Shown here: positions 10,939-64,000 of the stretch, piece by piece
How the letters are laid out: every line of letters starts with the position of its first letter
How positions within the stretch are numbered: the stretch's first letter is position 1
Made by a program: the position numbers and the translations under genes
DNA from: Eutreptiella sp. 'Long Island Sound 2002'
Taxonomy: Eukaryota; Euglenozoa; Euglenophyceae; Eutreptiales; Eutreptiaceae
Assembly (NCBI GenBank): GCA_964036045.1
Contig: OZ038383.1
Coordinates: 111,821,241 to 111,885,240, forward strand
Length of the DNA: 64,000 bases
Direction: 5' to 3'
Notes under the pieces: generated by a model
Seen by the model: only the letters and a program-made list of their open reading frames with translations
Database searches by the model: none
Told to the model about the DNA's origin: nothing

Positions 10939-13900
10939 CTGCGGGCAGGGCATCCCGGAGCGGAGGGGGAAAGGGAGGCTGAACAAATGGGTGCGGGTGG
11001 CGTCATTTATCAGTGCAGCGACTCATGACGCAGCTGAACTCACACAAAATTCGATTGGTTTTGATGACACAGTCGCATTGCGAGCGATTTGACCGGCTTT
11101 GCTGTGAAGCAGTCAAAGTGGCATGTGTTCTCTTTGACAATACCAACAGCCTCGTTCACCCACTTTTCGTCGGTGCCGAAACCCCACGAACACGATGCCC
11201 AGAATCATTTCATGAGCGACGGTTTCAAAACGTTAAGTACGAATACGGACAAGCAGGCACCCAGTGCAGTGGGCATGTGTCTGTATCTTATTGACGGTTG
11301 TCTGTGAAGGGACGTGCCCACACGTATTTGTGACTAGTGGCACACAGAATACCGGCCGCATGTTGTGTGCCCCAGCCCCGTGCCCCCTCAGGCCGCGCAG
11401 GCACACCTGGAGAAGAGGTGGGGGGGCATCTGGTTCTCCACCACCTTCCGGGGCAGGGGGGCCAACTGGCAGAAGGCCTCAAGGAAGTGCAGGCAGTTGA
11501 TGACTTCGACTGGCACTTGGTCATAGTTCTGAACGAGGGGATGGGGCATGTCAAAGCAGCGGCACAGCGATCCCAGGCACATACATCCCTCCACAACGCC
11601 CTCAACGCCCCAACGCCCTCAATGCCCCAACGCCCTCAATGCCCCAAGGCCCTCAATGCCCCAACGCCCTCAATGCCCCAACGCCCTCAATGCCCCAACG
11701 CCCTCAATGCCCCAACGCCCTCAATGCCCCAACGCCCTCAATGCCCCAACGCCCTCAACGCCCCAACGCCCTCAATGCCCCAACGCCCTCAATGCCCCAA
11801 CGCCCTCAATGCCCCAACGCCCTCAATGCCCCAACGCCCTCAATGCCCCAACGCCCTCAATGCCCCAATGCCCTCAACGCCCCAACGCCCTCAATGCCCC
11901 AACGCCATCAATGCCCCAACGCCCTCAATGCCCCAACGCCCTCAATGCCCCAACGCCCTCAACGCCCCAACGCCCTCAATGCCCCAACGCCCTCAACGCC
12001 CCAACGCCCTCAATGCCCCAACGCCCTCAATGCCCCAACGCCCTCAATGCCACAACGCCCTCAATGCCCCAACGCCCTCAATGCCCCAACGCCCTCAATG
12101 CCCCAACGCCCTCAATGCCCCAACGCCCTCAATGCCCCAACGCCCTCAATGCCCCAACGCCCTCAATGCCCCAACGCCCTCAACGCCCCAACGCCCTCAA
12201 TGCCCCAACGCCCTCAATGCCCCAACGCCCTCAACGCCCCAACGCCCTCAATGCCCCAACGCCCTCAATGCCCCAACGCCCTCAACGCCCTCAATGCCCC
12301 AACGCCCTCAATGCCACAACGCCCTCAATGCCCCAACGCCCTCAATGCCCCAACGCCCTCAACGCCCCAACGCCCTCAACGCCCCAACGCCCTCAATGCC
12401 CCAACGCCCTCAATGCCCCAACGCCCTCAATGCCCCAACACCCTCAATGCCCCAACGCCCTCAATGCCCCAACGCCCTCAATGCCCCAACGCCCTCAACG
12501 CCCCAACGCCCTCAATGCCCCAACGCCCTCAATGCCCCAACGCCCTCAATGCCCCAACGCCCTCAATGCCCCAACGCCCTCAATGCCCCAACGCCCTCAA
12601 TGCCCCAACGCCCTCAATGCCCCAACGCCCTCAATGCCCCAACGCCCTCAATGCCCCAACGCCCTCAACGCCCCAACGCCCTCAATGCCCCAACGCCCTC
12701 AACGCCCCAACGCCCTCAATGCCCCAACGCCCTCAATGCCCCAACGCCCTCAACGCCCCAACGCCCTCAATGCCCCAACGCCCTCAATGCCCCAACGCCC
12801 TCAACGCCCCAACGCCCTCAATGCCCCAACGCCCTCAATGCCCCAACGCCCTCAATGCCCCAACGCCCTCAATGCCCCAACGCCCTCAATGCCCCAACGC
12901 CCTCAATGCCCCAACGCCCTCAATGCCCCAACGCCCTCAATGCCCCAACACCCTCAATGCCCCAACGCCCTCAATGCCCCAACGCCCTCAATGCCCCAAC
13001 GCCCTCAACGCCCCAACGCCCTCAATGCCCCAACGCCCTCAATGCCCCAACGCCCTCAACGCCCCAACGCCCTCAATGCCCCAACGCCCTCAACGCCCCA
13101 ACGCCCTCAATGCCCCAACGCCCTCAATGCCCCAACGCCCTCAACGCCCCAACGCCCTCAATGCCCCAACGCCCTCAATGCCCCAACGCCCTCAACGCCC
13201 CAACGCCCTCAATGCCCCAACGCCCTCAATGCCCCAACGCCCTCAATGCCCCAACGCCCTCAATGCCCCAACGCCCTCAATGCCCCAACGCCCTCAATGC
13301 CCCAACGCCCTCAATGCCCCAACGCCCTCAATGCCCCAACACCCTCAATGCCCCAACGCCCTCAATGCCCCAACGCCCTCAATGCCCCAACGCCCTCAAC
13401 GCCCCAACGCCCTCAATGCCCCAACGCCCTCAATGCCCCAACGCCCTCAATGCCCCAACGCCCTCAATGCCCCAACGCCCTCAATGCCCCAACGCCCTCA
13501 ATGCCCCAACGCCCTCAATGCCCCAACGCCCTCAATGCCCCAACGCCCTCAATGCCCCAACGCCCTCAATGCCCCAACGCCCTCAATGCCCCAACACCCT
13601 CAATGCCCCAACGCCCTCAACGCCCCAACGCCCTCAATGCCCCAACGCCCTCAATGCCCCAACGCCCTCAATGCCCCAACGCCCTCAATGCCCCAACGCC
13701 CTCAATGCCCCAACGCCCCAACGCCCTCAATGCCCCAACGCCCTCAATGCCCCAACGCCCTCAATGCCCCAACGCCCTCAATGCCCCAACGCCCTCAATG
13801 CCCCAACGCCCTCAACGCCCCAACGCCCTCAATGCCCCAACGCCCTCAATGCCCCAACGCCCTCAATGCCCCAACGCCCTCAATGCCCCAACGCCCTCAA

Positions 13901-16900
13901 TGCCCCAACGCCCTCAATGCCCCAACGCCCTCAATGCCCCAACGCCCTCAATGCCCCAACGCCCTCAATGCCCCAACGCCCTCAATGCCCCAACGCCCTC
14001 AATGCCCCAACGCCCTCAATGCCCCAACGCCCTCAATGCCCCAACGCCCTCAACGCCCCAACGCCCTCAATGCCCCAACGCCCTCAATGCCCCAACGCCC
14101 TCAATGCCCCAACGCCCTCAATGCCCCAACACCCTCAATGCCCCAACGCCCTCAATGCCCCAACGCCCTCAACGCCCCAACGCCCTCAATGCCCCAACGC
14201 CCTCAATGCCCCAACGCCCTCAATGCCCCAACGCCCTCAATGCCCCAACGCCCCAACGCCCTCAATGCCCCAACGCCCTCAATGCCCCAACGCCCTCAAT
14301 GCCCCAACGCCCTCAATGCCCCAACGCCCTCAATGCCCCAACGCCCTCAACGCCCCAACGCCCTCAATGCCCCAACGCCCTCAACGCCCCAACGCCCTCA
14401 ATGCCCCAACGCCCTCAATGCCCCAACGCCCTCAACGCCCCAACGCCCTCAATGCCCCAACGCCCTCAATGCCCCAACGCCCTCAATGCCCCAACGCCCT
14501 CAATGCCCCAACGCCCTCAATGCCCCAACGCCCTCAATGCCCCAACGCCCTCAATGCCCCAAGGCCCTCAATGCCCCAACGCCCTCAATGCCCCAACGCC
14601 CTCAACGCCCCAACGCCCCCAATGCCCCAACGCCCTCAATGCCCCAACGCCCTCAATGCCCCAACGCCCTCAATGCCCCAACGCCCTCAATGCCACAACG
14701 CCCTCAATGCCCCAACGCCCTCAATGCCACAACGCCCTCAATGCCCCAACGCCCTCAACGCCCCAACGCCCTCAATGCCCCAACGCCCTCAATGCCCCAA
14801 CGCCCTCAATGCCCCAACGCCCTCAATGCCCCAACGCCCTCAATGCCCCAACGCCCTCAATGCCCCAACGCCCTCAATGCCCCAACACCCTCAATGCCCC
14901 AACGCCCTCAATGCCCCAACGCCCTCAACGCCCCAACGCCCTCAACGCCCCAACGCCCTCAATGCCCCAACGCCCTCAATGCCCCAACGCCCTCAATGCC
15001 CCAACGCCCTCAATGCCCCAACGCCCTCAATGCCCCAACGCCCTCAATGCCCCAACGCCCTCAATGCCCCAACGCCCTCAATGCCCCAACGCCCTCAACG
15101 CCCCAACGCCCTCAACGCCCCAACGCCCTCAATGCCCCAACGCCCTCAATGCCCCAACGCCCTCAATGCCCCAACGCCCTCAATGCCCCAACGCCCTCAA
15201 TGCCCCAACGCCCTCAATGCCCCAACGCCCTCAATGCCCCAACGCCCTCAATGCCCCAACGCCCTCAATGCCCCAACGCCCTCAATGCCCCAACGCCCTC
15301 AATGCCCCAACGCCCTCAATGCCCCAACGCCCTCAACGCCCCAACGCCCTCAATGCCCCAACGCCCTCAATGCCCCAACGCCCTCAATGCCCCAACGCCC
15401 TCAATGCCCCAACACCCTCAATGCCCCAACGCCCTCAATGCCCCAACGCCCTCAACGCCCCAACGCCCTCAATGCCCCAACGCCCTCAATGCCCCAACGC
15501 CCTCAATGCCCCAACGCCCTCAATGCCCCAACGCCCTCAATGCCCCAACGCCCTCAATGCCCCAACGCCCTCAATGCCCCAACGCCCTCAATGCCCCAAC
15601 GCCCTCAATGCCCCAACGCCCTCAACGCCCCAACGCCCTCAATGCCCCAACGCCCTCAACGCCCCAACGCCCTCAATGCCCCAACGCCCTCAATGCCCCA
15701 ACGCCCTCAACGCCCCAACGCCCTCAATGCCCCAACGCCCTCAATGCCCCAACGCCCTCAATGCCCCAACGCCCTCAATGCCCCAACGCCCTCAATGCCC
15801 CAACGCCCTCAATGCCCCAACGCCCTCAATGCCCCAACGCCCTCAATGCCCCAACGCCCTCAATGCCCCAACGCCCTCAATGCCCCAACGCCCTCAACGC
15901 CCCAACGCCCTCAATGCCCCAACGCCCTCAATGCCCCAACGCCCTCAACGCCCCAACGCCCTCAATGCCCCAACGCCCTCAACGCCCCAACGCCCTCAAT
16001 GCCCCAACGCCCTCAATGCCCCAACGCCCTCAATGCCCCAACGCCCTCAATGCCCCAACACCCTCAATGCCCCAACGCCCTCAACGCCCCAACGCCCTCA
16101 ATGCCCCAACGCCCTCAATGCCCCAACGCCCTCAATGCCCCAACGCCCTCAATGCCCCAACGCCCTCAATGCCCCAACGCCCTCAATGCCCCAACGCCCT
16201 CAATGCCCCAACGCCCTCAATGCCCCAACGCCCTCAATGCCCCAACGCCCTCAATGCCCCAACGCCCTCAACGCCCCAACGCCCTCAATGCCCCAACGCC
16301 CTCAACGCCCCAACGCCCTCAATGCCCCAACGCCCTCAATGCCCCAACGCCCTCAACGCCCCAACGCCCTCAATGCCCCAACGCCCTCAATGCCCCAACG
16401 CCCTCAATGCCCCAACGCCCTCAATGCCCCAACGCCCTCAATGCCCCAACGCCCTCAATGCCCCAACGCCCTCAATGCCCCAACGCCCTCAATGCCCCAA
16501 CGCCCTCAATGCCCCAACGCCCTCAATGCCCCAACGCCCTCAATGCCCCAACGCCCTCAACGCCCCAACGCCCTCAATGCCCCAACGCCCTCAACGCCCC
16601 AACGCCCTCAATGCCCCAACGCCCTCAACGCCCCAACGCCCTCAATGCCCCAACGCCCTCAATGCCCCAACGCCCTCAATGCCCCAACGCCCTCAACGCC
16701 CCAACGCCCTCAACGCCCCAACGCCCTCAATGCCCCAAGGCCCTCAATGCCCCAACGCCCTCAATGCCCCAACGCCCCAACGCCCTCAATGCCCCAACGC
16801 CCTCAACGCCCCAACGCCCTCAATGCCCCAACGCCCTCAATGCCCCAACGCCCTCAACGCCCCAACGCCCTCAATGCCCCGACGCCCTCAACGCCCCAAC

Positions 16901-19900
16901 GCCCTCAATGCCCCAACACCCTCAATGCCCCAACGCCCTCAATGCCCCAACGCCCTCAACGCCCCAACGCCCTCAATGCCACAACGCCCTCAATGCCCCA
17001 ACGCCCTCAATGCCCCAACGCCCTCAATGCCCCAACGCCCTCAACGCCCTCAACGCCCCAACGCCCTCAATGCCCCAACGCCCCAACGCCCTCAACGCCC
17101 CAACGCCCTCAATGCCCCAACGCCCTCAACGCCCTCAATGCCCCAACGCCCTCAATGCCCCAACGCCCTCAACGCCCTCAATGCCCCAACGCCCTCAATG
17201 CCCCAACGCCCTCAATGCCCCAACGCCCTCAATGCCCCAACGCCCTCAATGCCCCAACGCCCTCAATGCCCCAACGCCCTCAATGCCCCAACGCCCTCAA
17301 TGCCCCAACGCCCTCAATGCCCCAACGCCCTCAATGCCCCAACGCCCTCAATGCCCCAACGCCCTCAATGCCCCAACGCCCTCAATGCCCCAACGCCCTC
17401 AATGCCCCAACGCCCTCAATGCCCCAACGCCCTCAATGCCCCAACGCCCCAACGCCCTCAACGCCCCAACGCCCTCAATGCCCCAACGCCCTCAACGCCC
17501 TCAATGCCCCAACGCCCTCAATGCCCCAACGCCCTCAACGCCCTCAATGCCCCAACGCCCTCAATGCCCCAACGCCCTCAATGCCCTCAATGCCCCAACG
17601 CCCTCAACGCCCCAACGCCCTCAATGCCCCAACGCCCTCAACGCCCCAACGCCCTCAATGCCCCAACGCCCTCAATGCCCCAACGCCCTCAACGCCCCAA
17701 CGCCCTCAATGCCCCAACGCCCTCAATGCCCCAACGCCCTCAATGCCCCAACGCCCTCAATGCCCCAACGCCCTCAATGCCCCAACGCCCTCAATGCCCC
17801 AACGCCCTCAATGCCCCAACGCCCTCAATGCCCCAACGCCCTCAATGCCCCAACGCCCTCAATGCCCCAACGCCCTCAATGCCCCAAGGCCCTCAATGCC
17901 CCAAGGCCCTCAATGCCCCAACGCCCTCAACGCCCTCAACGCCCCAACCCCCTCAGCGCCCCAACGCCCTCAATGCCCCAACGCCCTCAATGCCCCAACG
18001 CCCTCAATGCCCCAACGCCCTCAACGCCCCAACGCCCTCAATGCCCCAACGCCCTCAATGCCCCAACGCCCTCAATGCCCCAACGCCCTCAATGCCCCAA
18101 CGCCCTCAATGCCCCAACGCCCTCAATGCCCCAACGCCCTCAATGCCCCAACGCCCTCAATGCCCCAACGCCCTCAACGCCCCAAGGCCCTCAATGCCAC
18201 AACGCCCTCAATGCCACAACGCCCTCAATGCCCCAACGCCCTCAATGCCCCAACGCCCTCAATGCCCCAAGGCCCTCAATGCCCCAAGGCCCTCAATGCC
18301 CCAACGCCCTCAATGCCACAACGCCCTCAATGCCCCAACGCCCTCAATGCCCCAACGCCCTCAATGCCCCAACGCCCTCAATGCCCCAACGCCCTCAATG
18401 CCCTCAACGCCCCAACGCCCTCAATGCCACAACGCCCTCAATGCCCCAACGCCCTCAATGCCCCAACGCCCTCAATGCCACAACGCCCTCAATGCCCCAA
18501 CGCCCTCAATGCCCCAACGCCCTCAATGCCCCAACGCCCTCAATGCCCCAACGCCCTCAATGCCCCAACGCCCTCAATGCCCCAACGCCCTCAATGCCAC
18601 AACGCCCTCAATGCCCCAACGCCCTCAATGCCCCAACGCCCTCAACGCCCCAACGCCCTCAATGCCACAACGCCCTCAATGCCCCAACGCCCTCAATGCC
18701 CCAACGCCCTCAACGCCCCAACGCCCTCAATGCCCCAACGCCCTCAATGCCCCAACGCCCTCAATGCCCCAACGCCCTCAATGCCCCAACGCCCTCAATG
18801 CCCCAACGCCCTCAATGCCCCAAAGCCCTCAATGCCCCAAGGCCCTCAACGCCCCAACGCCCTCAATGCCCCAACGCCCTCAATGCCCCAACGCCCTCAA
18901 TGCCCCAACGCCCTCAATGCCCCAACGCCCTCAATGCCCCAACGCCCTCAATGCCCCAACGCCCTCAATGCCCCAACGCCCTCAATGCCCCAACGCCCTC
19001 AATGCCCCAACGCCCTCAACGCCCCAACGCCCTCAACGCCCCAACACCCTCAACGCCCCAACGCCCTCAATGCCCCAACGCCCTCAATGCCCCAACGCCC
19101 TCAATGCCCCAAGGCCCTCAACGCCCCAACGCTCTCAACGCCCCAACGCCCTCAACGCCCCAACGCCCTCAATGCCCCAACGCCCTCAATGCCCCAACGC
19201 CCTCAATGCCCCAACGCCCTCAATGCCCCAACGCCCTCAATGCCCCAACGCCCTCAACGCCCCAACGCCCTCAATGCCCCAACGCCCTCAATGCCCCAAC
19301 GCCCTCAATGCCCCAACGCCCTCAATGCCCCAACGCCCTCAATGCCCCAACGCCCTCAATGCCCCAACGCCCTCAATGCCCCAAGGCCCTCAACGCCCCA
19401 AGGCCCTCAATGCCCCAACGCCCTCAATGCCACAACGCCCTCAATGCCCCAACGCCCTCAATGCCCCAACGCCCTCAATGCCCCAACGCCCTCAATGCCC
19501 CAACGCCCTCAATGCCCCAACGCCCTCAATGCCCCAACGCCCTCAATGCCCCAACGCCCTCAACGCCCTCAATGCCCCAACGCCCTCAATGCCCCAAGGC
19601 CCTCAACGCCCCAAGGCCCTCAATGCCCCAACGCCCTCAATGCCCCAACGCCCTCAATGCCCCAACGCCCTCAATGCCCCAACGCCCTCAATACCCCAAC
19701 GCCCTCAATGCCCCAACGCCCTCAATGCCCCAACGCCCTCAATGCCCCAACGCCCTCAATGCCCCAACGCCCTCAACGCCCTCAATGCCCCAACGCCCTC
19801 AATGCCCCAATGCCCTCAATGCCCCAACGCCCTCAATGCCCCAACGCCCTCAATACCCCAACGCCCTCAATGCCCCAACGCCCTCAATGCCCCAACGCCC

Positions 19901-22900
19901 TCAATGCCCCAACGCCCTCAACGCCCCAACGCCCTCAATGCCCCAACGCCCTCAATGCCCCAACGCCCTCAATGCCCCAACGCCCTCAATGCCCCAACGC
20001 CCTCAATGCCCCAACGCCCTCAATGCCCCAACGCCCTCAATGCCCCAACGACCTCAATGCCCCAACGCCCTCAACGCCCCAACGCCCTCAATGCCCCAAC
20101 GCCCTCAATGCCCCAACGCCCTCAATGCCCCAACGCCCTCAACGCCCCAACGCCCTCAATGCCCCAACGCCCTCAATGCCCCAACGCCCTCAATGCCCCA
20201 ACGCCCTCAATGCCCCAACGCCCTCAATGCCCCAACGCCCTCAACGCCCCAACGCCCTCAATGCCCCAACGCCCTCAACGCCCCAACGCCCTCAACGCCC
20301 CAACGCCCTCAACGCCCCAACGCCCTCAACGCCCCAACGCCCTCAATGCCCCAACGCCCTCAATGCCCCAACGCCCTCAATGCCCCAACGCCCTCAATGG
20401 CCCAACGCCCTCAATGCCCCAACGCCCTCAATGCCCCAACGCCCTCAATGCCCCAACGCCCTCAATGCCCCAACGCCCTCAATGCCCCAACGCCCTCAAT
20501 GCCCCAACGCCCTCAATGCCCCAACGCCCTCAATGCCCCAACGCCCTCAATGCCCCAACGCCCTCAATGCCCCAACGCCCTCAACGCCCCAACGCCCTCA
20601 ACGCCCCAACGCCCTCAATGCCCCAACGCCCTCAATGCCCCAACGCCCTCAATGCCCCAACGCCCTCAATGCCCCAACACCCTCAATGCCCCAACGCCCT
20701 CAATGCCACAACGCCCTCAACGCCCCAACGCCCTCAACGCCCCAACGCCCTCAATGCCACAACGCCCTCAATGCCCCAACGCCCTCAACGCCCCAACGCC
20801 CTCAATGCCCCAACGCCCTCAATGCCCCAACGCCCTCAATGCCCCAACGCCCTCAATGCCCCAACGCCCTCAATGCCCCAACGCCCTCAATGCCCCAACG
20901 CCCTCAATGCCCCAACGCCCTCCATGCCCCAACGCCCTCAATGCCCCAACGCCCTCAATGCCCCAACGCCCTCAATGCCCCAACGCCCTCAATGCCCCAA
21001 CGCCCTCAATGCCCCAACGCCCTCAATGCCCCAACGCCCTCAATGCCCCAAGGCCCTCAATGCCCCAAGGCCCTCAATGCCCCAAGGCCCTCAATGCCCC
21101 AACGCCCTCAATGCCCCAAGGCACTCAACGCCCCAAGGCCCTCAACGCCCCAAGGCCCTCAATGCCCCAACGCCCTCAATGCCCCAACGCCCTCAATGCC
21201 CCAACGCCCTCAATGCCCCAACGCCCTCAATGCCCCAACGCCCTCAATGCCCCAACGCCCTCAATGCCCCAACGCCCTCAATGCCCCAAGGCCCTCAACG
21301 CCCCAACGCCCTCAATGCCACAACGCCCTCAATGCCCCAACGCCCTCAACGCCCCAACGCCCTCAATGCCACAACGCCCTCAATGCCACAACGTCCTCAA
21401 TGCCCCAACGCCCTCAATGCCCCAACGCCCTCAATGCCCCAATGCCCTCAATGCCCCAACGCCCTCAACGCCCCAACGCCCTCAATGCCCCAACGCCCTC
21501 AATGCCCCAACGCCCTCAATGCCCCAAGGCCCTCAATGCCCCAAGGCCCTCAACGCCCCAAGGCCCTCAACGCCCCAAGGCCCTCAATGCCCCAACGCCC
21601 TCAATGCCCCAACGCCCTCAATGCCCCAACGCCCTCAATGCCCCAACGCCCTCAACGCCCCAACGCCCTCAATGCCCCAACGCCCTCAATGCCCCAACGC
21701 CCACAATGCCCCAACGCCCTCAATGCCCCAACGCCCTCAATGCCCCAACGCCCTCAATGCCCCAACGCCCTCAACGCCCCAACGCCCTCAATGCCCCAAC
21801 GCCCTCAATGCCCCAACGCCCTCAATGCCCCAACGCCCTCAATGCCCCAACGCCCTCAATGCCCCAACGCCCTCAATGCCCCAACGCCCTCAATGCCCCA
21901 ACGCCCTCAATGCCCCAAGGCCCTCAACGCCCCAAGGCCCTCAATGCCCCAACGCCCTCCATGCCCCAACGCCCTCAACGCCCCAACGCCCTCAATGCCC
22001 CAACGCCCTCAATGCCCCAACGCCCTCAATGCCCCAACGCCCTCAATGCCCCAACGCCCTCAATGCCCCAACGCCCTCAATGCCCCAACGCCCTCAATGC
22101 CCCAACGCCCTCAATGCCCCAACGCCCTCAATGCCCCAAGGCCCTCAATGCCCCAAGGCCCTCAATGCCCCAACGCCCTCAATGCCCCAACGCCCTCAAT
22201 GCCCCAAGGCCCTCAACGCCCCAAGGCCCTCAATGCCCCAACGCCCTCAATGCCCCAACGCCCTCAATGCCACAACGCCCTCAATGCCACAACGTCCTCA
22301 ATGCCCCAACGCCCTCAATGCCCCAACGCCCTCAATGCCCCAACGCCCGCAATGCCCCAACGCCCTCAACACCCCAACGCCCTCAATGCCCCAACGCCCT
22401 CAATGCCCCAACGCCCTCAATGCCCCAAGGCCCTCAATGCCCCAAGGCCCTCAACGCCCCAAGGCCCTCAACGCCCCAAGGCCCTCAATGCCCCAACGCC
22501 CTCAATGCCCCAACGCCCTCAATGCCCCAACGCCCTCCATGCCCCAACGCCCTCAATGCCCCAACGCCCTCAACGCCCCAACGCCCTCAATGCCCCAACG
22601 CCCTCAATGCCCCAACGCCCACAATGCCCCAACGCCCTCAATGCCCCAACGCCCTCAATGCCCCAACGCCCTCAATGCCCCAACGCCCTCAACGCCCCAA
22701 CGCCCTCAATGCCCCAACGCCCTCAATGCCCCAACGCCCTCAATGCCCCAACGCCCTCAATGCCCCACCGCCCTCAATGCCCCAACGCCCTCAATGCCCC
22801 AACGCCCTCAATGCCCCAACGCCCTCAATGCCCCAAGGCCCTCAACGCCCCAAGGCCCTCAATGCCCCAACGCCCTCCATGCCCCAACGCCCTCAACGCC

Positions 22901-25900
22901 CCAACGCCCTCAATGCCCCAACGCCCTCAATGCCCCAACGCCCTCAATGCCCCAACGCCCTCAATGCCCCAACGCCCTCAATGCCCCAACGCCCTCAATG
23001 CCCCAACGCCCTCAATGCCCCAACGCCCTCAATGCCCCAACGCCCTCAATGCCCCAAGGCCCTCAATGCCCCAACGCCCTCAATGCCCCAACGCCCTCAA
23101 TGCCCCAACGCCCTCAATGCCCCAAGGCCCTCAACGCCCCAAGGCCCTCAATGCCCCAACGCCCTCAATGCCCCAACGCCCTCAATGCCCCAACGCCCTC
23201 AACGCCCCAACGCCCTCAATGCCCCAAGGCCCTCAACGCCCCAACGTCCTCAATGCCCCAACGCCCTCAATGCCCCAACGCCCTCAATGCCCCAACGCCC
23301 TCAATGCCCCAACGCCCTCAATGCCCCAACGCCCTCAATGCCCCAACGCCCTCAATGCCCCAAGGCCCTCAACGCCCCAATGCCCTCAATGCCCCAACGC
23401 CCTCAATGCCACAACGCCCTCAATGCCCCAACGCCGTCAATGCCCCAACGCCCTCAATGCCCCAACGCCCTCAATGCCCCAAGGCCCTCAATGCCCCAAG
23501 GCCCTCAATGCCCCAACACCCTCAATGCCCCAACGCCCTCAATGCCCCAACGCCCTCAATGCCCCAACGCCCTCAATGCCCCAACGCCCTCAATGCCCCA
23601 ACGCCCTCAATGCCCCAACGCCCTCAATGCCCCAACGCCCTCAATGCCCCAACGCCCTCAATGCCCCAACGCCCTCAATGCCCCAAGGCCCTCAACGCCC
23701 CAAGGCCCTCAATGCCCCAACGCCCTCAATGCCCCAAGGCCCTCAACGCCCCAACGCCCTCAATGCCCCAACGCCCTCAATGCCACAACGCCCTCAATGC
23801 CCCAACGCCCTCGATGCCACAACGCCCTCAATGCCCCAACGCCCTCAATGCCCCAACGCCCTCAATGCCCCAACGCCCTCAATGCCCCAACGCCCTCAAT
23901 GCCCCAACGCCCTCAATGCCCCAACGCCCTCAATGCCCCAAGGCCCTCAACGCCCCAACGCCCTCAATGCCCCAACGCCCTCAATGCCCCAACTTCCCCA
24001 ACGCCCCAACGCCCTCAACGCCCCAACGCCCTCAATGCCCCAACGCCCTCAATGCCACAACGCCCTCAATGCCCCAACGCCCTCAATGCCCCAACGCCCT
24101 CAATGCCACAACGCCCTCAATGCCCCAACGCCCTCAATGCCCCAACGCCCTCAATGCCCCAACGCCCTCAATGCCCCAAGGCCCTCAATGCCCCAACGCC
24201 CTCAATGCCCCAACGCCCTCAATGCCCCAACGCCCTCAATGCCCCAACGCCCTCAATGCCCCAACGCCCTCAATGCCCCAACGCCCTCAATGCCCCAACG
24301 CCCTCAATGCCCCAACGCCCTCAATGCCCCAACGCCCTCAATGCCCCAACGCCCACAATGCCCCAACGCCCTCAATGCCGCAACGCCCTCAATGCCCCAA
24401 CGCCCTCAATGCCCCAACGCCCTCAATGCCACAACGCCCTCAACGCCCCAACGCCCTCAATGCCACAACGCCCTCAATGCCCCAACGCCCTCAATGCCCC
24501 AACGCCCTCAATGCCCCAACGCCCTCAATGCCCCAACGCCCTCAATGCCACAACGCCCTCAATGCCCCAACGCCCTCAATGCCCCAACGCCCTCAATGCC
24601 ACAACGCCCTCCATGCCCCAACGCCCTCAATGCCCCAAGGCCCTCAATGCCCCAACGCCCTCAATGCCCCAACGCCCTCAATGCCACAACGCCCTCAATG
24701 CCCCAACGCCCTCAATGCCCCAACGCCCTCAATGCCCCAACGCCCACAATGCCCCAACGCCCTCAATGCCGCAACGCCCTCAATGCCGCAACGCCCTCAA
24801 TGCCCCAACGCCCTCAATGCCACAACGCCCTCAACGCCCCAACGCCCTCAATGCCCCAACGCCCTCAATGCCCCAACGCCCTCAATGCCCCAACGCCCTC
24901 AATGCCCCAACGCCCTCAATGCCCCAACGCCCTCAATGCCACAACGCCCTCAATGCCCCAACGCCCTCAATGCCCCAACGCCCTCAATGCCCCAACGCCC
25001 TCAATGCCCCAACGCCCTCAATGCCCCAACGCCCTCAATGCCCCAACGCCCTCAATGCCCCAAGGCCCTCAATGCCCCAACGCCCTCAATGCCCCAACGC
25101 CCTCAATGCCCCAACGCCCTCAATGCCACAACGCCCTCAATGCCCCAACGCCCTCAATGCCCCAAGGCCCTCAATGCCCCAACGCCCTCAATGCCCCAAC
25201 GCCCTCAATGCCCCAAGGCCCTCAATGCCCCAACGCCCTCAATGCCCCAACGCCCTCAATGCCCCAACGCCCTCAATGCCCCAACGCCCTCAATGCCCCA
25301 ACGCCCTCAATGCCACAACGCCCTCAACGCCCCAACGCCCTCAATGCCACAACGCCCTCAATGCCCCAACGCCCTCAATGCCCCAACGCCCTCAATGCCA
25401 CAACGCCCTCAATGCCCCAACGCCCTCAATGCCCCAACGCCCTCAATGCCCCAACGCCCTCAATGCCCCAACGCCCTCAATGCCACAACGCCCTCAATGC
25501 CCCAACGCCCTCAATGCCCCAACGCCCTCAATGCCACAACGCCCTCAATGCCCCAACGCCCTCAATGCCCCAAGGCCCTCAATGCCCCAACGCCCTCAAT
25601 GCCCGAAAGCCCTCAATGCCACAACGCCCTCAATGCCCCAACGCCCTCAATGCCCCAACGCCCTCAATGCCCCAACGCCCACAATGCCCCAACGCCCTCA
25701 ATGCCGCAACGCCCTCAATGCCGCAACGCCCTCAATGCCCCAACGCCCTCAATGCCACAACGCCCTCAACGCCCCAACGCCCTCAATGCCCCAACGCCCT
25801 CAATGCCCCAACGCCCTCAATGCCCCAACGCCCTCAATGCCCCAACGCCCTCAATGCCCCAACGCCCTCAATGCCACAACGCCCTCAATGCCCCAACGCC

Positions 25901-31900: not shown

Positions 31901-34900
31901 CCCCAACGCCCTCAATGCCCCAAGGCCCTCAATGCCCCAAGGCCCTCAATGCCCCAACGCCCTCAATGCCACAACGCCCTCAATGCCCCAACGCCCTCAA
32001 TGCCCCAACGCCCTCAATGCCCCAAGGCCCTCAATGCCCCAACGCCCTCAATGCCCCAACGGCCTCAATGCCCCAACGCCCTCAATGCCCCAACGCCCTC
32101 AATGCCCCAACGCCCTCAATGCCCCAACGCCCTCAATGCCCCAACGCCCTCAATGCCCCAACGCCCTCAGTGCCCCAAGGCCCTCAATGCCACAACGCCC
32201 TCAATGCCCCAACGCCCTCAATGCCCCAACGCCCTCAATGCCCCAACGCCCTCGATGCCCCAATGCCCTCAATGCCCCAACGCCCTCAATGCCACAACGC
32301 CCTCAATGCCCCAACGCCCTCAATGCCCCAACGCCCTCAATGCCCCAACGCCCTCAATGCCCCAACGCCCTCAATGCCCCAACGCCCTCAATGCCCCAAC
32401 GCCCTCAATGCCCCAAGGCCCTCAACGCCCCAAGGCCCTCAATGCCCCAACGCCCTCAATGCCCCAACGCCCCCAACGCCCCAAGGCCCTCAATGCCCCA
32501 ACGCCCTCAATGCCACAACGCCCTCAATGCCCCAACGCCCTCAATGCCCCAACGCCCTCAATGCCCCAACGCCCTCAATGCCACAACGCCCTCAATGCCC
32601 CAACGCCCTCAATGCCCCAACGCCCTCAATGCCCCAACGCCCTCAATGCCCCAACGCCCTCAATGCCCCAAGGCCCTCAATGCCCCAAGGCCCTCAATGC
32701 CCCAAGGCCCTCAATGCCCCAAGGCCCTCAATGCCCCAACGCCCTCAATGCCCCAACGCCCTCAATGCCCCAACGCCCTCAATGCCACAACGCCCTCAAT
32801 GCCCCAACGCCCTCAATGCCCCAACGCCCTCAATGCCCCAACGCCCTCAATGCCCCAACGCCCTCAATGCCCCAACGCCCTCAATGCCCCAACGCCCACA
32901 ATGCCCCAACGCCCTCAATGCCCCAACGCCCTCAATGCCCCAACGCCCTCAATGCCCCAACGCCCTCAATGCCACAACGCCCTCAACGCCCCAACGCCCT
33001 CAATGCCACAACGCCCTCAATGCCCCAACGCCCTCAATGCCCCAACGCCCTCAATGCCCCAACGCCCTCAATGCCCCAACGCCCTCAATGCCCCAACGCC
33101 CTCAATGCCCCAACGCCCTCAATGCCCCAACGCCCTCAATGCCACAACGCCCTCAATGCCCCAACGCCCTCAATGCCCCAAGGCCCTCAATGCCCCAAGG
33201 CCCTCAATGCCCCAAGGCCCTCAATGCCACAACGCCCTCAATGCCCCAACGCCCTCAATGCCCCAACGCCCTCAATGCCCCAAGGCCCTCAATGCCCCAA
33301 GGCCCTCAATGCCCCAACGCCCTCAATGCCCCAACGCCCTCAATGCCCCAACGCCCTCAATGCCACAACGCCCTCAATGCCCCAACGCCCTCAATGCCCC
33401 AACGCCCTCAATGCCACAACGCCCTCAACGCCCCAACGCCCTCAATGCCCCAACGCCCTCAATGCCCCAACGCCCTCAATGCCCCAACGCCCTCAATGCC
33501 CCAACGCCCTCAATGCCCCAACGCCCTCAATGCCCCAACGCCCTCAACGCCCCAACGCCCTCAATGCCACAACGCCCTCAATGCCCCAACGCCCTCAATG
33601 CCCCAACGCCCTCAACGCCCCAACGCCCTCAATGCCCCAACGCCCTCAATGCCCCAACGCCCTCAATGCCCCAACGCCCTCAATGCCACAACGCCCTCAA
33701 TGCCCCAACGCCCTCAATGCCACAACGCCCTCAATGCCCCAACGCCCTCAATGCCCCAATGCCCTCAATGCCCCAACGCCCTCAATGCCCCAACGCCCTC
33801 AATGCCCCAACGCCCTCAATGCCCCAACGCCCTCAATGCCCCAACGCCCTCAATGCCACAACGCCCTCAATGCCCCAACGCCCTCAATGCCCCAACGCCC
33901 TCAATGCCCCAACGCCCTCAATGCCCCAACGCCCTCAATGCCCCAACGCCCTCAATGCCCCAACGCCCTCAATGCCCCAACGCCCTCAATGCCCCAACGC
34001 CCTCAATGCCACAACGCCCTCAACGCCCCAACGCCCTCAATGCCCCAACGCCCCAACGCCCTCAATGCCCCAACGCCCTCGATGCCCCAACGCCCTCAAT
34101 GCCACAACGCCCTCAATGCCCCAACGCCCTCAATGCCCCAAGGCCCTCAATGCCACAACGCCCTCAATGCCCCAAGGCCCTCAATGCCCCAACGCCCTCA
34201 ATGCCCCAACGCCCTCAATGCCACAACGCCCTCAATGCCCCAACGCCCTCAATGCCCCAACGCCCTCAATGCCACAACGCCCTCAACGCCCCAACGCCCT
34301 CAATGCCACAACGCCCTCAATGCCCCAACGCCCTCAATGCCCCAACGCCCTCAATGCCACAACGCCCTCAAGGCCCAAACGCCCTCAATGCCCCAACGCC
34401 CTCAATGCCCCAACGCCCTCAATGCCCCAAGGCCCTCAATGCCCCAACGCCCTCAATGCCCCAAGGCCCTCAATGCCACAACGCCCTGAATGCCCCAACG
34501 CCCTCAATGCCCCAACGCCCTCAATGCCCCAACGCCCTCAATGCCACAACGCCCTCAATGCCCCAACGCCCTCAATGCCCCAACGCCCTCAATGCCACAA
34601 CGCCCTCAACGCCCCAACGCCCTCCATGCCACAACGCCCTCAATGCCCCAACGCCCTCAATGCCCCAACGCCCTCAATGCCACAACGCCCTCAATGCCCC
34701 AACGCCCTCAATGCCACAACGCCCTCAATGCCCCAACGCCCTCAATGCCACAACGCCCTCAATGCCCCAACGCCCTCAATGCCCCAACGCCCTCAACGCC
34801 CCAACGCCCTCAATGCCCCAACACCCTCAATGCCACAACGCCCTCAATGCCCCAACGCCCTCAACGCCCCAACGCCCTCAATGCCCCAACGCCCTCAATG

Positions 34901-37900
34901 CCCCAACGCCCTCAATGCCCCAACGCCCTCAATGCCCCAACGCCCTCAATGCCCCAACGCCCTCAATGCCCCAACGCCCTCAATGCCCCAACGCCCTCAA
35001 TGCCCCAACGCCCTCAATGCCCCAACGCCCTCAATGCCCCAACGCCCTCAATGCCCCAACGCCCTCAATGCCCCAACGCCCTCAACGCCGCAACGCCCTC
35101 AATGCCCCAACGCCCTCAATGCCCCAACGCCCTCAATGCCCCAAGGCCCTCAATGCCCCAAGGCCCTCAATGCCCCAACGCCCTCAATGCCCCAACGCCC
35201 TCAATGCCCCAAGGCCCTCAACGCCCCAACGCCCTCAACGCCCCAACGCCCTCAATGCCCCAACGCCCTCAATGCCCCAACGCCCTCAATGCCCCAACGC
35301 CCTCAATGCCCCTACGCCCTCAACGCCCCAACGCCCTCAATGCCCCAACGCCCTCAATGCCCCAACGCCCTCAATGCCCCAACGCCCTCAATGCCCCAAC
35401 GCCCTCAATGCCCCAACGCCCTCAATGCCCCAACGCCCTCAATGCCCCAACGCCCTCAACGCCCCAACGCCCTCAATGCCCCAACGCCCTCAATGCCCCA
35501 ACGCCCTCAATGCCCCAACGCCCTCAATGCCCCAACGCCCTCAATGCCCCAACGCCCTCAATGCCACAACGCCCTCAACGCCCCAACACCCTCAATGCCC
35601 CAACGCCCTCAATGCCCCAACGCCCTCAATGCCCCAACGCCCTCAATGCCCCAACGCCCTCAATGCCCCAACGCCCTCAATGCCCCAACGCCCTCAATGC
35701 CCCAACGCCCTCAATGCCCCAACGCCCTCAATGCCCCAACGCCCTCAATGCCCCAACGCCCTCAATGCCCCAACGCCCTCAATGCCCCAACGCCCTCAAT
35801 GCCCCAACGCCCTCAATGCCCCAAGGCCCTCAATGCCCCAACGCCCTCAATGCCCCAACGCCCTCAATGCCCCAACGCCCTCAATGCCCCAACGCCCTCA
35901 ATGCCCCAACGCCCTCAATGCCCCAACGCCCTCAATGCCCCAACGCCCTCAACGCCCCAACGCCCTCAATGCCCCAACGCCCTCAATGCCCCAACGCCCT
36001 CAATGCCCCAACGCCCTCAATGCCCCAAAGCCCTCAACGCCACAACGCCCTCAACGCCCCAACGCCCTCAATGCCCCAACGCCCTCAATGCCCCAACGCC
36101 CTCAATGCCCCAACGCCCTCAATGCCCCAACGCCCTCAATGCCCCAACGCCCTCAATGCCCCAACGCCCTCAACGCCCCAACGCCCTCAATGCCCCAACG
36201 CCCTCAACGCCCCAACGCCCTCAATGCCACAACGCCCTCAATGCCCCAACGCCCTCAATGCCCCAACGCCCTCAATGCCCCAACGCCCTCAATGCCCCAA
36301 CGCCCTCAATGCCCCAATGCCCTCAATGCCCAAACGCCCTCAATGCCCCAAGGCCCTCAATGCCCCAAGGCCCTCAATGCCCCAACGCCCTCAACGCCCC
36401 AACGCCCTCAACGCCCCAAAGCCCTCAACGCCCCAAGGCCCTCAATGCCCCAACGCCCTCAATGCCCCAAGGCCCTCAATGCCCCAACGCCCTCAATGCC
36501 CCAACGCCCTCAATGCCCCAACGCCCTCAATGCCCCAACGCCCTCAATGCCCCAACGCCCTCAATGCCCCAACGCCCTCAACGCCCCAACGCCCTCAATG
36601 CCCCAACGCCCTCAACGCCCCAACGCCCTCAATGCCACAACGCCCTCAACGCCCCAACGCCCTCAATGCCCCAACGCCCTCAATGCCCCAACGCCCTCAA
36701 TGCCCCAACGCCCTCAATGCCCCAATGCCCTCAATGCCCAAACGCCCTCAATGCCCCAAGGCCCTCAATGCCCCAAGGCCCTCAATGCCCCAACGCCCTC
36801 AATGCCCCAACGCCCTCAACGCCCCAAGGCCCTCAATGCCCCAACGCCCTCAATGCCCCAACGCCCTCAGTGCCACAACGCCCTCAATGCCCCAACGCCC
36901 TCAATGCCCCAACGCCCTCAATGCCACAACGCCCTCAACGCCCCAACGCCCTCAATGCCACAACGCCCTCAATGCCCCAACGCCCTCAATGCCCCAACGC
37001 CCTCAATGCCACAACGCCCTCAAGGCCCAAACGCCCTCAATGCCCCAACGCCCTCAATGCCCCAACGCCCTCAATGCCCCAAGGCCCTCAATGCCCCAAC
37101 GCCCTCAATGCCCCAAGGCCCTCAATGCCACAACGCCCTGAATGCCCCAACGCCCTCAATGCCCCAACGCCCTCAATGCCCCAACGCCCTCAATGCCACA
37201 ACGCCCTCAATGCCCCAACGCCCTCAATGCCCCAACGCCCTCAATGCCCCAACGCCCTCAACGCCCCAACGCCCTCCATGCCACAACGCCCTCAATGCCC
37301 CAACGCCCTCAATGCCCCAACGCCCTCAATGCCACAACGCCCTCAATGCCCCAACGCCCTCAATGCCACAACGCCCTCAATGCCCCAACGCCCTCAATGC
37401 CACAACGCCCTCAATGCCCCAACGCCCTCAATGCCCCAACGCCCTCAACGCCCCAACGCCCTCAATGCCCCAACACCCTCAATGCCACAACGCCCTCAAT
37501 GCCCCAACGCCCTCAACGCCCCAACGCCCTCAATGCCCCAACGCCCTCAATGCCCCAACGCCCTCAATGCCCCAACGCCCTCAATGCCCCAACGCCCTCA
37601 ATGCCCCAACGCCCTCAATGCCCCAACGCCCTCAATGCCCCAACGCCCTCAATGCCCCAACGCCCTCAATGCCCCAACGCCCTCAATGCCCCAACGCCCT
37701 CAATGCCCCAACGCCCTCAATGCCCCAACGCCCTCAATGCCCCAACGCCCTCAACGCCCCAACGCCCTCAATGCCCCAACGCCCTCAATGCCCCAACGCC
37801 CTCAATGCCCCAAGGCCCTCAATGCCCCAAGGCCCTCAATGCCCCAACGCCCTCAATGCCCCAACGCCCTCAATGCCCCAAAGCCCTCAACGCCCCAACG

Positions 37901-40900
37901 CCCTCAACGCCCCAACGCCCTCAATGCCCCAACGCCCTCAATGCCCCAACGCCCTCAATGCCCCAACGCCCTCAATGCCCCTACGCCCTCAACGCCCCAA
38001 CGCCCTCAATGCCCCAACGCCCTCAATGCCACAACGCCCTCAATGCCCCAACGCCCTCAATGCCCCAACGCCCTCAACGCCCCAACGCCCTCAATGCCCC
38101 AACACCCTCAATGCCACAACGCCCTCAATGCCCCAACGCCCTCAATGCCACAACGCCCTCAATGCCCCAACGCCCTCAATGCCACAACGCCCTCAATGCC
38201 CCAACGCCCTCAATGCCCCAACGCCCTCAACGCCCCAACGCCCTCAATGCCCCAACACCCTCAATGCCACAACGCCCTCAATGCCCCAACGCCCTCAACG
38301 CCCCAACGCCCTCAATGCCCCAACGCCCTCAATGCCCCAACGCCCTCAATGCCCCAACGCCCTCAATGCCCCAACGCCCTCAATGCCCCAACGCCCTCAA
38401 TGCCCCAACGCCCTCAATGCCCCAACGCCCTCAATGCCCCAACGCCCTCAATGCCCCAACGCCCTCAATGCCCCAACGCCCTCAATGCCCCAACGCCCTC
38501 AATGCCCCAACGCCCTCAATGCCCCAACGCCCTCAACGCCCCAACGCCCTCAATGCCCCAACGCCCTCAATGCCCCAACGCCCTCAATGCCCCAAGGCCC
38601 TCAATGCCCCAAGGCCCTCAATGCCCCAACGCCCTCAATGCCCCAACGCCCTCAATGCCCCAAAGCCCTCAACGCCCCAACGCCCTCAACGCCCCAACGC
38701 CCTCAATGCCCCAACGCCCTCAATGCCCCAACGCCCTCAATGCCCCAACGCCCTCAATGCCCCTACGCCCTCAACGCCCCAACGCCCTCAATGCCCCAAC
38801 GCCCTCAATGCCCCAACGCCCTCAATGCCCCAACGCCCTCAATGCCCCAACGCCCTCAATGCCCCAACGCCCTCAATGCCCCAACGCCCTCAATGCCCCA
38901 ACGCCCTCAACGCCCCAACGCCCTCAATGCCCCAACGCCCTCAATGCCCCAACGCCCTCAATGCCCCAACGCCCTCAATGCCCCAACGCCCTCAATGCCC
39001 CAACGCCCTCAATGCCACAACGCCCTCAACGCCCCAACACCCTCAATGCCCCAACGCCCTCAATGCCCCAACGCCCTCAATGCCCCAACGCCCTCAATGC
39101 CCCAACGCCCTCAATGCCCCAACGCCCTCAATGCCACAACGCCCTCAATGCCCCAACGCCCTCAATGCCCCAACGCCCTCAATGCCCCAACGCCCTCAAT
39201 GCCCCAACGCCCTCAATGCCCCAACGCCCTCAATGCCCCAACGCCCTCAATGCCCCAAGGCCCTCAATGCCCCAAGGCCCTCAATGCCCCAACGCCCTCA
39301 ATGCCCCAACGCCCTCAATGCCCCAACGCCCTCAATGCCCCAACGCCCTCAATGCCCCAACGCCCTCAATGCCACAACGCCCTCAATGCCCCAACGCCCT
39401 CAATGCCCCAACGCCCTCAACGCCCCAACGCCCTCAATGCCCCAACGCCCTCAATGCCCCAACGCCCTCAATGCCCCAACGCCCTCAATGCCCCAACGCC
39501 CTCAACGCCACAACGCCCTCAACGCCCCAACGCCCTCAATGCCCCAACGCCCTCAATGCCCCAACGCCCTCAATGCCCCAACGCCCTCAATGCCCCAACG
39601 CCCTCAATGCCCCAACGCCCTCAATGCCCCAACGCCCTCAACGCCCCAACGCCCTCAATGCCCCAACGCCCTCAACGCCCCAACGCCCTCAATGCCACAA
39701 CGCCCTCAATGCCCCAACGCCCTCAATGCCCCAACGCCCTCAATGCCCCAACGCCCTCAATGCCCCAACGCCCTCAATGCCCCAACGCCCTCAATGCCCC
39801 AATGCCCTCAATGCCCAAACGCCCTCAATGCCCCAAGGCCCTCAATGCCCCAAGGCCCTCAATGCCCCAACGCCCTCAATGCCCCAACGCCCTCAACGCC
39901 CCAAGGCCCTCAACGCCCCAAGGCCCTCAATGCCCCAAGGCCCTCAATGCCCCAAGGCCCTCAATGCCCCAACGCCCTCAATGCCCCAACGCCCTCAATG
40001 CCCCAACGCCCTCAATGCCCCAACGCCCTCAATGCCCCAACGCCCTCAATGCCCCAACGCCCTCAATGCCCCAACGCCCTCAATGCCCCAACGCCCTCAA
40101 CGCCCCAACGCCCTCAATGCCCCAACGCCCTCAACGCCCCAACGCCCTGAATGCCCCAACGCCCTCAATGCCCCAACGCCCTCAATGCCCCAACGCCCTC
40201 AATGCCCCAAGGCCCTCAATGCCCCAAGGCCCTCAATGCCCCAACGCCCTCAATGCCCCAACGCCCTCAATTCCCCAAGGCCCTCAATGCCCCAAAGCCC
40301 TCAACGCCCCAACGCCCTCAATGCCCCAACGCCCTCAATGCCCCAACGCCCTCAATGCCCCAACGCCCTCAATGCCCCTACGCCCTCAACGCCCCAACGC
40401 CCTCAATGCCCCAACGCCCTCAATGCCCCAACGCCCTCAATGCCCCAACGCCCTCAATGCCCCAACGCCCTCGATGCCCCAACGCCCTCAATGCCCCAAC
40501 GCCCTCAATGCCCCAACGCCCTCAATGCCCCAACGCCCTCAATGCCCCAACGCCCTCAATGCCCCAACGCCCTCAATGCCCCAACGCCCTCAATGCCCCA
40601 ACGCCCTCAATGCCCCAACGCCCTCAATGCCCCAACGCCCTCAATGCCCCAACGCCCTCAATGCCCCAACGCCCTCAATGCCCCAACGCCCTCAATGCCC
40701 CAACGCCCTCAACGCCCCAACGCCCTCAATGCCCCAACGCCCTCAATGCCCCAACGCCCTCAATGCCCCAACGCCCTCAATGCCCCAACGCCCTCAACGC
40801 CCCAACGCCCTCAACGCCCCACCGCCCTCAATGCCCCAACGCCCTCAATGCCCCAACGCCCTCAATGCCCCAACGCCCTCAATGCCCCAACGCCCTCAAT

Positions 40901-43900
40901 GCCACAACGCCCTCAATGCCACAACGCCCTCAACGCCCCAACACCCTCAATGCCCCAACGCCCTCAATGCCCCAACGCCCTCAATGCCCCAACGCCCTCA
41001 ATGCCCCAACGCCCTCAATGCCCCAACGCCCTCAATGCCACAACGCCCTCAATGCCCCAACGCCCTCAATGCCCCAACGCCCTCAACGCCCCAACGCCCT
41101 CAATGCCCCAACGCCCTCAATGCCCCAACGCCCTCAATGCCCCAACGCCCTCAATGCCCCAACGCCCTCAATGCCCCAACGCCCTCAATGCCCCAAGGCC
41201 CTCAATGCCCCAAGGCCCTCAATGCCCCAACGCCCTCAATGCCCCAACGCCCTCAATGCCCCAACGCCCTCAATGCCACAACGCCCTCAATGCCCCAACG
41301 CCCTCAATGCCCCAACGCCCTCAATGCCCCAACGCCCTCAATGCCCCAACGCCCTCAATGCCCCAACGCCCTCAATGCCCCAACGCCCTCAATGCCCCAA
41401 CGCCCTCAATGCCCTCAACGCCACAACGCCCTCAACGCCCCAACGCCCTCAATGCCCCAACGCCCTCAATGCCCCAACGCCCTCAATGCCCCAACGCCCT
41501 CAACGCCCCAACGCCCTCAATGCCCCAACGCCCTCAATGCCACAACTCCCTCAACGCCCCAACGCCCTCAATGCCCCAACGCCCTCAATGCCCCAACGCC
41601 CTCAATGCCCCAACGCCCTCAATGCCCCAACGCCCTCAATGCCCCAACGCCCTCAATGCCCCAACGCCCTCAATGCCCCAACGCCCTCAATGCCCCAACG
41701 CCCTCAATGCCCCAACGCCCTCAATGCCCCAACGCCCTCAACGCCCCAACGCCCTCAATGCCCCAACGCCCTCAATGCCCCAACGCCCTCAACGCCCCAA
41801 CGCCCTCAACGCCCCAACGCCCTCAATGCCCCAACGCCCCAATGCCCTCAATGCCCCAACGCCCTCAATGCCCCAACGCCCTCAACGCCCCAACGCCCTC
41901 AATGCCCCAACGCCCTCAACGCCCCAACGCCCTCAACGCCCCAACGCCCTCAATGCCCCAACGCCCTCAATGCCCCACCGCCTGAATGCCCCAACGCCCT
42001 CAATGCCCCAACGCCCTCAATGCCCCAACGCCCTCAATGCCCCAACGCCCTCAATGCCCCAACGCCCTCAACGCCCCAACGCCCTCAATGCCCCAACGCC
42101 CTCAATGCCCCAACGCCCTCAATGCCCCAACGCCCTCAATGCCCCAACGCCCTCAATGCCCCAACGCCCTCAATGCCCCAACGCCCTCAATGCCCCAACG
42201 CCCTCAATGCCCCAACGCCCTCATTGCCCCAACGCCCTCAATGCCCCAACGCCCTCAATGCCCCAACGCCCTCAATGCCCCAACGCCCTCAATGCCCCAA
42301 CGCCCTCAATGCCCCAACGCCCTCAATGCCCCAACGCCCTTAATGCCCCAACACCCTCAATGCCACCCTGTGCCCGCACAGTGCTGCGGCTGCAGAGCGG
42401 CTGCTGTGGAGCGCTGTGTGCTGCTCCATGCTGCTGCATGCTGCACGCATGCATGCTGCAGGCATCTGCATAGATGTGAGCTACTGCTGCTGCTGCTGCT
42501 GCTCCATACTTCTGCTGCTGCCACCGCCCCATGCAGCTGCAGGCAGGCATGGAGCTGTTACCGCTGGGTATGCGTTGGTTGTGTGATCGGGTGGAACAGC
42601 CGCCTGCCGCCCGAACGAGCCAACACACCGCATGCGCACAAAAAGGTTCGTCTTGGGTCCAGGGCGCACCTTTTTGTCACTGGAGAAGGGCATTTCGTTG
42701 AGCATGACCCGGACGTACTGGGCCAAGTACGCGATGAACGCATCTGCAGAGAGTGGCGCAGAGGTCCCGGTCACACCGAACAGGACGCGGCACACAGCCC
42801 TCGGGCGTGGCAGCAGAACAGGTTTGGCAGATCTGAAAATGATGTGTGGTCCCACTCGCAGGGACCCCTTCAGGGCCCTAACCAACACGAGACAAAGGTC
42901 TGACAGTCAAACTCCGGATATTTCGAAGGGTTCAGTGTCCCGCACATGTGGAGTGGCGCGTCCCCTGAATCCCAGCGAATCCCACACACCATTTCCATGA
43001 AACCGACTGAATCCCATGAAATCTTCACCTTTACCTTCTGCACTTTTGGGTGCACTTGTAGGAACCATCGTTTTGGCAGTTCCAATACCAAGAGAACGTG
43101 GCTTTGTGGCTGGTTTGCGGCTGGTCCCTTTCCACATGCACCCTATGCCGAGGAGGGGACTGGTACAGAGACTTTGTGGGCTGAATCAGGGGCGGGGATA
43201 AGAGGGGGCAGGGGGATGACAAATAACGAATTACGAAATTCGGCCGACCAAAAACACGCTCATACACAATACGAATGTGCAGGAACAAATCTGGTGGTAG
43301 AGTATCAGGCCCTGTTGGGGTGGGAGAGGGCCGCGCATGGGGTGTACGGGGCGGTCGCGGCCACGTCCGTGAGGGAGGCTGGAAGGGGGACCTTTGTGCT
43401 CGCTGTGGAACTGCTTGAGGATGGTGATGACGCCCACCACAAACGGGATCCCGTCCAGCGCCTCACCGCCCTTGCGGCTCGTGAGACAGTCAATGTGGAC
43501 CTGCAACCAGATTCAGAACACTGCTTGAGGGGGGCATAGAGGAAGGGGGTTGGGGTGGTGGGGGGGGGGGGCACCCCCACACCCGTGTGTGTGTGCGCGC
43601 GTGTGTGTGCAGGGATTGGGAGGCAGGCACCAGACATTCAGAGTCTTGGGGGGTTTTCCAATGGACCATGGATGACTGGGGCCCCAGAAGGCGCTTACAT
43701 CGAGAGGCTGCGCCAGGCTGACATTAGGAGAGAGGAGGTGGGGGGCTTTTGGACCCGAAAGTTTGTGTACCAAAAATGGCCCAATCGGATTTTCCCAACA
43801 GTAAATTTCGTTTTTTCCCACGATGGTCACTTTGGTCTGGGGGGGGGGGGGGTTGAGGGGTTGCAGGGGGGGCTTCTCCTATGGTTGTCAGCCGGCTGCT

Positions 43901-63343: not shown

Positions 63344-64000
63344 CTGCATCGACGGTGTGAGTGGGGGCAGAGGCCAGCCCTGGACGCAGTGGCGCCCGCG
63401 CCCGGTTCCTGCGGGTTGGCCCCACTTCAGGGATGCATTAGAAGGCACGGCGCCAGGGAGGAGGCCCCAGAAGCGGGTAGACAGGCGTTTGGAGGAGGTT
63501 GCCAAAGCGGTTGGGGGGGGTTACTGTCGGTTACAAATGCCATTGAGCCTGGCACCTGGCGTCAAGGGGACAGTGGCTGGGCATAGGCTGGGCGTCCTCG
63601 AGGGGGGGGGGGGTTACCTCCCCCCGTTCCAATGCATCCCTGGCCCCCTTTCCCATCCCCCTGTACCCCACACTCGTGAGTTGACGGGCGTCCTGTGTGG
63701 GTCTGCACGGCGGCGGACAGCGGTCTCCATTCCCCCAGACACGCAGAACGTCCCGTTTGTCTCGCCCACAGCCCAAGTGCAGGGCCTGGTACAGCAACAG
63801 CACTGCAGGCCTTGTGCAGCATCCGCCACCAACCACAGACCCTTGCCACTGGGAGTCTGTGGTCGGTGTAAGGTGCCACCAGCCCTTTGCTGTGCAACTG
63901 TCCCCTCGCCTCGCCGGCCACATTGGCGCAGACATCCCATGCAGCCCCCCATCCCTGCTGGGCACCGCAGATCGAATACCGAGGCGGGGGGGGCGGGGTT
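63344..64000. other. Upstream intron of strumpellin, right edge
   Basis: No strumpellin exon is visible upstream of 63343, so the next exon lies outside. The stretch holds dispersed repeat A copy 2 and a G-run at about 63601. Confidence 0.6.
63461..63637 (+). repeat. Dispersed repeat A, copy 2
   Basis: This is the partner of 53645-53826. It begins GAGGCCCCAGAAGCGGGTAG and ends GTTACCTCCCCCCGTTCCAA. It is about 120 bp upstream of the exon 1 acceptor on the gene strand. Confidence 0.75.

Follow-up and report, generated by a model that had tools for sequence, protein, structure and literature searches.

A 30.8-kb minisatellite fills almost all of one intron of a strumpellin gene in Eutreptiella sp.

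In Eutreptiella sp., a single-celled relative of Euglena, the last intron of a gene for strumpellin, a conserved protein of the cell scaffold, is 31,141 bp long (11529..42669, minus strand, GT-AG, phase 0, placed by spliced alignment), and nearly all of it is a single 17-bp tandem repeat. It is highly likely that this is an ordinary GT-AG intron filled by a minisatellite that arose locally, which is transcribed and spliced out normally and which the gene carries as a passenger. Unless another sequence is named, coordinates refer to the window, that is the whole stretch of 64,000 nucleotides analysed here (C6:111821241-111885240 of an assembly of 2,280,300,865 bases).

When TRF was run on the window it returned a single array, at 11594-42364, with a period of 17, 1815.9 copies, 95 % matches and 0 % indels. 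It spans 30,771 bp, or 98.8 % of the intron, and the preliminary description of a 30.8-kb, 17-bp minisatellite filling nearly the whole of a 31.1-kb gap is thus borne out by TRF and by segmentation alike. Segmentation divided the array into 1,809 units of 70 forms. The commonest form, CAACGCCCTCAATGCCC (plus strand), accounts for 1,225 of these, and the remainder are mainly three one-base variants, T13C, C17A, and C4G. The unit is 17 bp long in 1,791 cases out of 1,809; most of the others are longer or shorter by approximately half this length, in keeping with a 17-bp unit that is itself an imperfect dimer of 9+8, CAACGCCCT + CAATGCCC. With head-to-tail units in the range of approximately 10-100 bp and variant units present (period 17, 70 forms), the array is a minisatellite. 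A higher-order-repeat satellite was considered and rejected, based on the presence of local block repeats only: there is no array-wide higher-order period, no lag is dominant, and the best variant match is 0.08, at lag 1.

Variant types are distributed patchily along the array, and blocks of units are duplicated within it. Among 1,011 variant-rich stretches of 12 units, 159 have an exact second copy, whereas 100 shuffles gave a mean of 0.38 and a maximum of 10; the median distance to the nearest such copy is 55 units, with quartiles of 50 and 156. The longest perfect run is 15 units. Growth may have involved the doubling of an 8-9-bp motif to give the 17-bp unit, the array then having its origin in a half-unit, and the duplication of blocks of units within the array by slippage, unequal exchange or repair. 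Local minisatellite growth of this kind would have stretched an intron of 370 bp, the length that is left when the array is subtracted, to 31.1 kb.

The identity of the gene was addressed with a PF10266 profile search of the genome, which gave 25 matches, 21 on the minus strand of C6 and four on contig C129. Those on C6 are exon-sized, lie between 111864633 and 111929786, and cover profile positions 1 to 1073 of 1084, with gaps. A protein database search found 941 homologues at E up to 0.001; in the best 120 of these, from which identities were taken, the best match is P0001 (EG_transcript_875, EukProt), with 69 % identity at full length, while P0002 has 61 %, P0008 has 77 % across 64 % of the query, and P0009, a named diplonemid, has 50 %. 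The EG_transcript in the name of the best match presumably stands for Euglena gracilis. Judged by these profile and homologue matches, the protein is strumpellin (WASHC5, PF10266), as the preliminary description had suggested. The two short exons around the array, searched alone against Pfam, had no match at E 10, ten long open frames from the window all lacked a Pfam match at E 0.1, and a search of solved structures returned no strumpellin chain, only two chance-level matches (E 0.21).

The gene model was obtained by spliced alignment to approximately 98 kb of C6, with the 1,174-aa protein of C129, spliced by script, as the query. It encodes 1,144 residues between an initiator methionine at 108609, counted on the window scale, and 11412. 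Of its 32 introns, seven adjoin short or poorly aligned pieces and were set aside as doubtful, leaving 25. The gene measures approximately 97 kb in all, partly outside the window, and the array intron is its last. On the minus strand of the window, the exons 58823..59001, 53877..54020, 46835..47008, and 46162..46296 are each supported by a PF10266 match and the spliced alignment, as is 43392..43500 (PF10266 positions 1039-1073), which precedes the exon before the array. That exon, 42670..42743, starts within a codon interrupted by the previous intron and is supported by the spliced alignment, the homologue alignment, and the genome search. The exon after the array, 11388..11528, found by spliced alignment and by reading on, is read as the terminal coding exon, ending after 46 codons in a TGA stop (11390-11388). 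A donor-like CAG/GTGTGC (a slash marks the splice border) lies about six codons upstream of this TGA, making one further small exon possible. The labels exon 13 and exon 14 given to this pair in the preliminary description were a count within the window only, as the gene starts far outside it; the exons themselves and their junction hold.

The spliced alignment, for which a different strumpellin served as the query, recovered the junction 42670/11528 exactly and in phase 0, in agreement with the earlier reading of the two exons as adjacent pieces of one protein. In an eight-sequence alignment the relatives continue unbroken through the junction (P0001: DKK-SADVPVEV). Since P0001 to P0003 bear transcript-type names, this is indirect support for the two pieces being joined in relatives.

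A search of the genome with both exons gave three matches: the exon after the array, the exon before it (continuing into the intron), and C129. Contig C129 is 39,922 bp in length, with a GC content of 0.48 over the 18 kb read (C129:1-18000), and carries a compact, complete strumpellin gene with three introns of 142-240 bp. The encoded protein is 42 % identical to that of C6 and no more than 48 % identical to any of the 120 listed homologues, and C129 is probably the DNA of another organism. As to a WASH complex that strumpellin might be part of in this organism, a WASH_WAHD search gave one match above the cut-off on C1, at 26 bits, and two on the small contig C1834; a WASH-subunit domain on both would fit an assembly containing two organisms, a point drawn from the C1 and C1834 matches of one family. 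A second copy of the exon after the array, which would have spoken against the junction, was looked for, and besides C129 this exon is present once in the assembly. There is accordingly one such exon on C6, and the description of the gene as single-copy stands on the condition, a probable one, that C129 belongs to another organism.

These data also bear on whether two places have been wrongly joined in the assembly, or units gained or lost in it, either of which might be suspected of an array so repetitive and with units so nearly identical. That unrelated places were wrongly joined is improbable, because the exons on either side continue one another in the protein, in phase, and the exon after the array occurs only once besides C129. 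The longest exact repeat inside the array is 811 bp, well under the length of accurate long reads, which could therefore resolve it; the variants are patchy and block-like, as expected of a real array. An artefact of either sort is thus unlikely overall, although an error in the length of the array, which is known from one assembly and one allele, is possible.

The borders of the intron are those of a conventional spliceosomal intron. A unique part of 305 nt (42365..42669, minus strand) contains the 5′ splice site, AAAAAG/GTGCGC, and a unique part of 65 nt (11529..11593, minus strand) contains the 3′ splice site, CGTTCAG/AAC, so that the intron begins with GTGCGC and ends with TTCAG. The array starts 305 nt past the donor and stops 65 nt short of the exon, and both splice sites are outside it. 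A candidate branch point, CTTTGAC, was picked by eye in the 65-nt part. The donor, with a score of 11.95, ranks first among the 25 kept introns of the gene and the acceptor, with 6.95, ranks 14th; the intron is GT-AG and its sites are like those of the other introns. On this sequence evidence it is an ordinary spliceosomal GT-AG intron and not a nonconventional euglenid intron. The latter class was rejected based on the GT-AG borders and a pairing energy of 0.0 between the terminal 10+10 nt, intron ends without pairing not being those of a nonconventional intron; the design of this test follows PMC11170887. The fold of the intron emptied of its array has a z of -1.3.

It is therefore proposed that RNA polymerase would pass through the array and that the major spliceosome would excise the intron by means of a strong donor and an average acceptor, both outside the array. 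Normal splicing is supported by a junction that was found with a query ignorant of it, and by the ranks of the donor and acceptor. Length counts against this reading. The intron is 4.1 times as long as the next longest of the same gene (7,621 bp, the maximum of the other 24 kept introns, their median being 1,736.5 bp), and 3.8 times as long as the maximum of 8,197 bp that PMC11170887 tabulates for GT-AG introns of E. gracilis, of which it counts 11,527, with a mean of 512.5 bp, in a genome that its authors call incomplete.

Given an intron so extreme for the lineage, transcripts could stop before the array, leaving a shortened protein or a decaying gene, and nine AATAAA/ATTAAA hexamers in the other introns make early ends conceivable. 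Within the array, however, a search for three poly(A)-like hexamers found none, the acceptor of the exon past the array is good, and this exon still encodes the conserved C-terminus, with 40 % identity to C129 over 37 aa (E 1.9e-4), its 98 % match being by construction. Such an early end is therefore very unlikely. If the intron were retained, the protein would gain an in-frame extension of 62 codons before a stop at 42483-42481 (42481..42669, minus strand); the open frame 42481-42906 is in frame with the exon before the array, the codon count having been worked out by hand.

Splice-like sites are scarce inside the array, with donor-like sites at 0.68 per kb compared with 2.78 per kb in the other introns of the gene, and acceptor-like sites at 0.52 compared with 9.54 per kb. 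Splice silence as an adaptation was nevertheless rejected; this low density says little, because 81 % of 5,000 random 17-mer units have neither donor-like nor acceptor-like sites.

The array is G-rich in the sense RNA, and it may be that G-quadruplexes or R-loops formed there slow the polymerase and set the proportion of full-length protein to a truncated form, which would lack the last 46 residues and have 62 others in their place, up to the intron stop. Quadruplex motifs (G3+N1-7, non-overlapping) number 787 on the sense strand and none on the other, compared with a mean of 190.65 and a maximum of 212 in 20 base shuffles; in the other 33 kb of the window the counts are 38 and 23. The sense GC skew is 0.62, the other 24 kept introns ranging from -0.19 to 0.27. 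In human CACNA1C, long array alleles accompany lower expression in two tissues (PMC13131567). Against this, a single G-rich unit carries little weight, since 17 % of random 17-mers from the other introns of the gene are equally skewed, and in a folding model that permits quadruplexes an 85-nt piece still forms a hairpin (-20.0 kcal/mol). A functional array is thus improbable. In its most specific form, the array would be a transcription timer, in which approximately 3,450 nascent G-tracts delay the mRNA and array length tunes the balance between the full-length form and that lacking 46 residues; this is likewise improbable, although some regulatory effect is possible. The array is more simply seen as a tolerated passenger, neutrality being taken as the default, and transcription and splicing through it presumably proceed normally.

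On the plus strand the frame 11334-42473 is open for 10,379 codons, which could be taken for an antisense gene encoding a repetitive protein of approximately 10,000 residues. This is extremely unlikely. As 17 is not a multiple of three, all frames share one 51-nt cycle, which is free of stops, as it is for 64 % of 5,000 random 17-mers; when the order of units was shuffled, a stop-free frame persisted in 40 % of 300 trials. Variants are not enriched at third codon positions, T13C being rarest there (55, compared with 81 and 87). Based on these stop and codon-position tests a giant antisense protein is disfavoured, and the long frame is a by-product of the unit, whose 51-nt cycle lacks a stop.

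Within the 2.28-Gb assembly, an exact two-unit pattern has 876 matches, all on one strand and all 876 within the array, while the reversed control has none. Exact 14-mers of the unit are absent from 16 other stretches sampled, six beside the window, two of C129, and eight of 5 kb at chosen places on C1-C6. The array is therefore not supported as a member of a dispersed satellite family, exact two-unit matches being confined to it, with the proviso that exact matching would pass over diverged copies, which are possible. Large arrays do occur elsewhere in the genome: one of the eight chosen 5-kb stretches, C5:52000001-52005000, consists wholly of a satellite with a period of 418 (12 copies at 97 %), which may be centromeric or some other large satellite.

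Other repeats were observed in and around the gene. In the 10 kb before the window, past the end of the gene, tandem units of 5, 47, 125, and 316 bp give 35 % coverage (L026:1081-6861). Another intron of the gene has a 424-bp array of the hexamer CCCTCA (L020:2963-3386), a motif also found inside the 17-bp unit. A dispersed repeat of approximately 80-110 bp occurs four times in the introns (43740-43852, 47525-47638, 52219-52328, and 53340-53453), the later copies being 69-77 % identical to the first over 83 nt and some adjoining a TTCTAATGT-like end; this is possibly a small mobile element. A direct repeat of 156 bp, 87 % identical, is shared by two introns at a distance of 9.8 kb (53642-53797 and 63458-63613).

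In the open-licence literature, no paper was found with both 'strumpellin' and 'Euglena', nor any report of this locus. With one unit, one locus, and one intron, it is an unusually clean natural case, in a lineage noted for odd introns and with short introns in the sole relative surveyed. It is suited to direct investigation of how splicing joins exons separated by 31 kb, nearly all of it one G-rich repeat, and of whether array length matters to a conserved gene. Provided that the assembly is correct, animals are not alone in having giant locus-specific intronic minisatellites.

Intronic repeats this large are already known elsewhere, and the strumpellin array is a striking example. Among known cases, the human CACNA1C intronic VNTR, TRACT (PMC13131567), comes closest. 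It likewise has a short unit at a single locus in an intron of a conserved gene, is from 3 to over 30 kb long, and mixes one-base unit variants with perfect tracts in a mosaic, as here. Its growth has been explained by expansion via perfect tracts that are later mutated, and the block pattern seen here is similar. However, the TRACT unit is 30 bp rather than 17 bp, the gene is human with alleles compared among many people rather than a single allele, and it is the present array that nearly fills its intron. In E. gracilis, GT-AG introns also hold tandem repeats, at a mean of 3.22 % of intron bases, although the examples of 88 and 482 bp (PMC11170887) are far from the 30,771 bp of this array. 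Intronic minisatellites in a conserved gene family of C. elegans have been linked to alternative splicing (PMC4039745). The Drosophila Y genes kl-3 and kl-5 have introns composed almost entirely of tandem repeats that are transcribed and spliced out (PMC6508621; PMC11207136), however these are megabases of simple satellites in testis-specific genes, whereas strumpellin is a general gene and the repeat unit in its 31-kb intron is specific to the locus.
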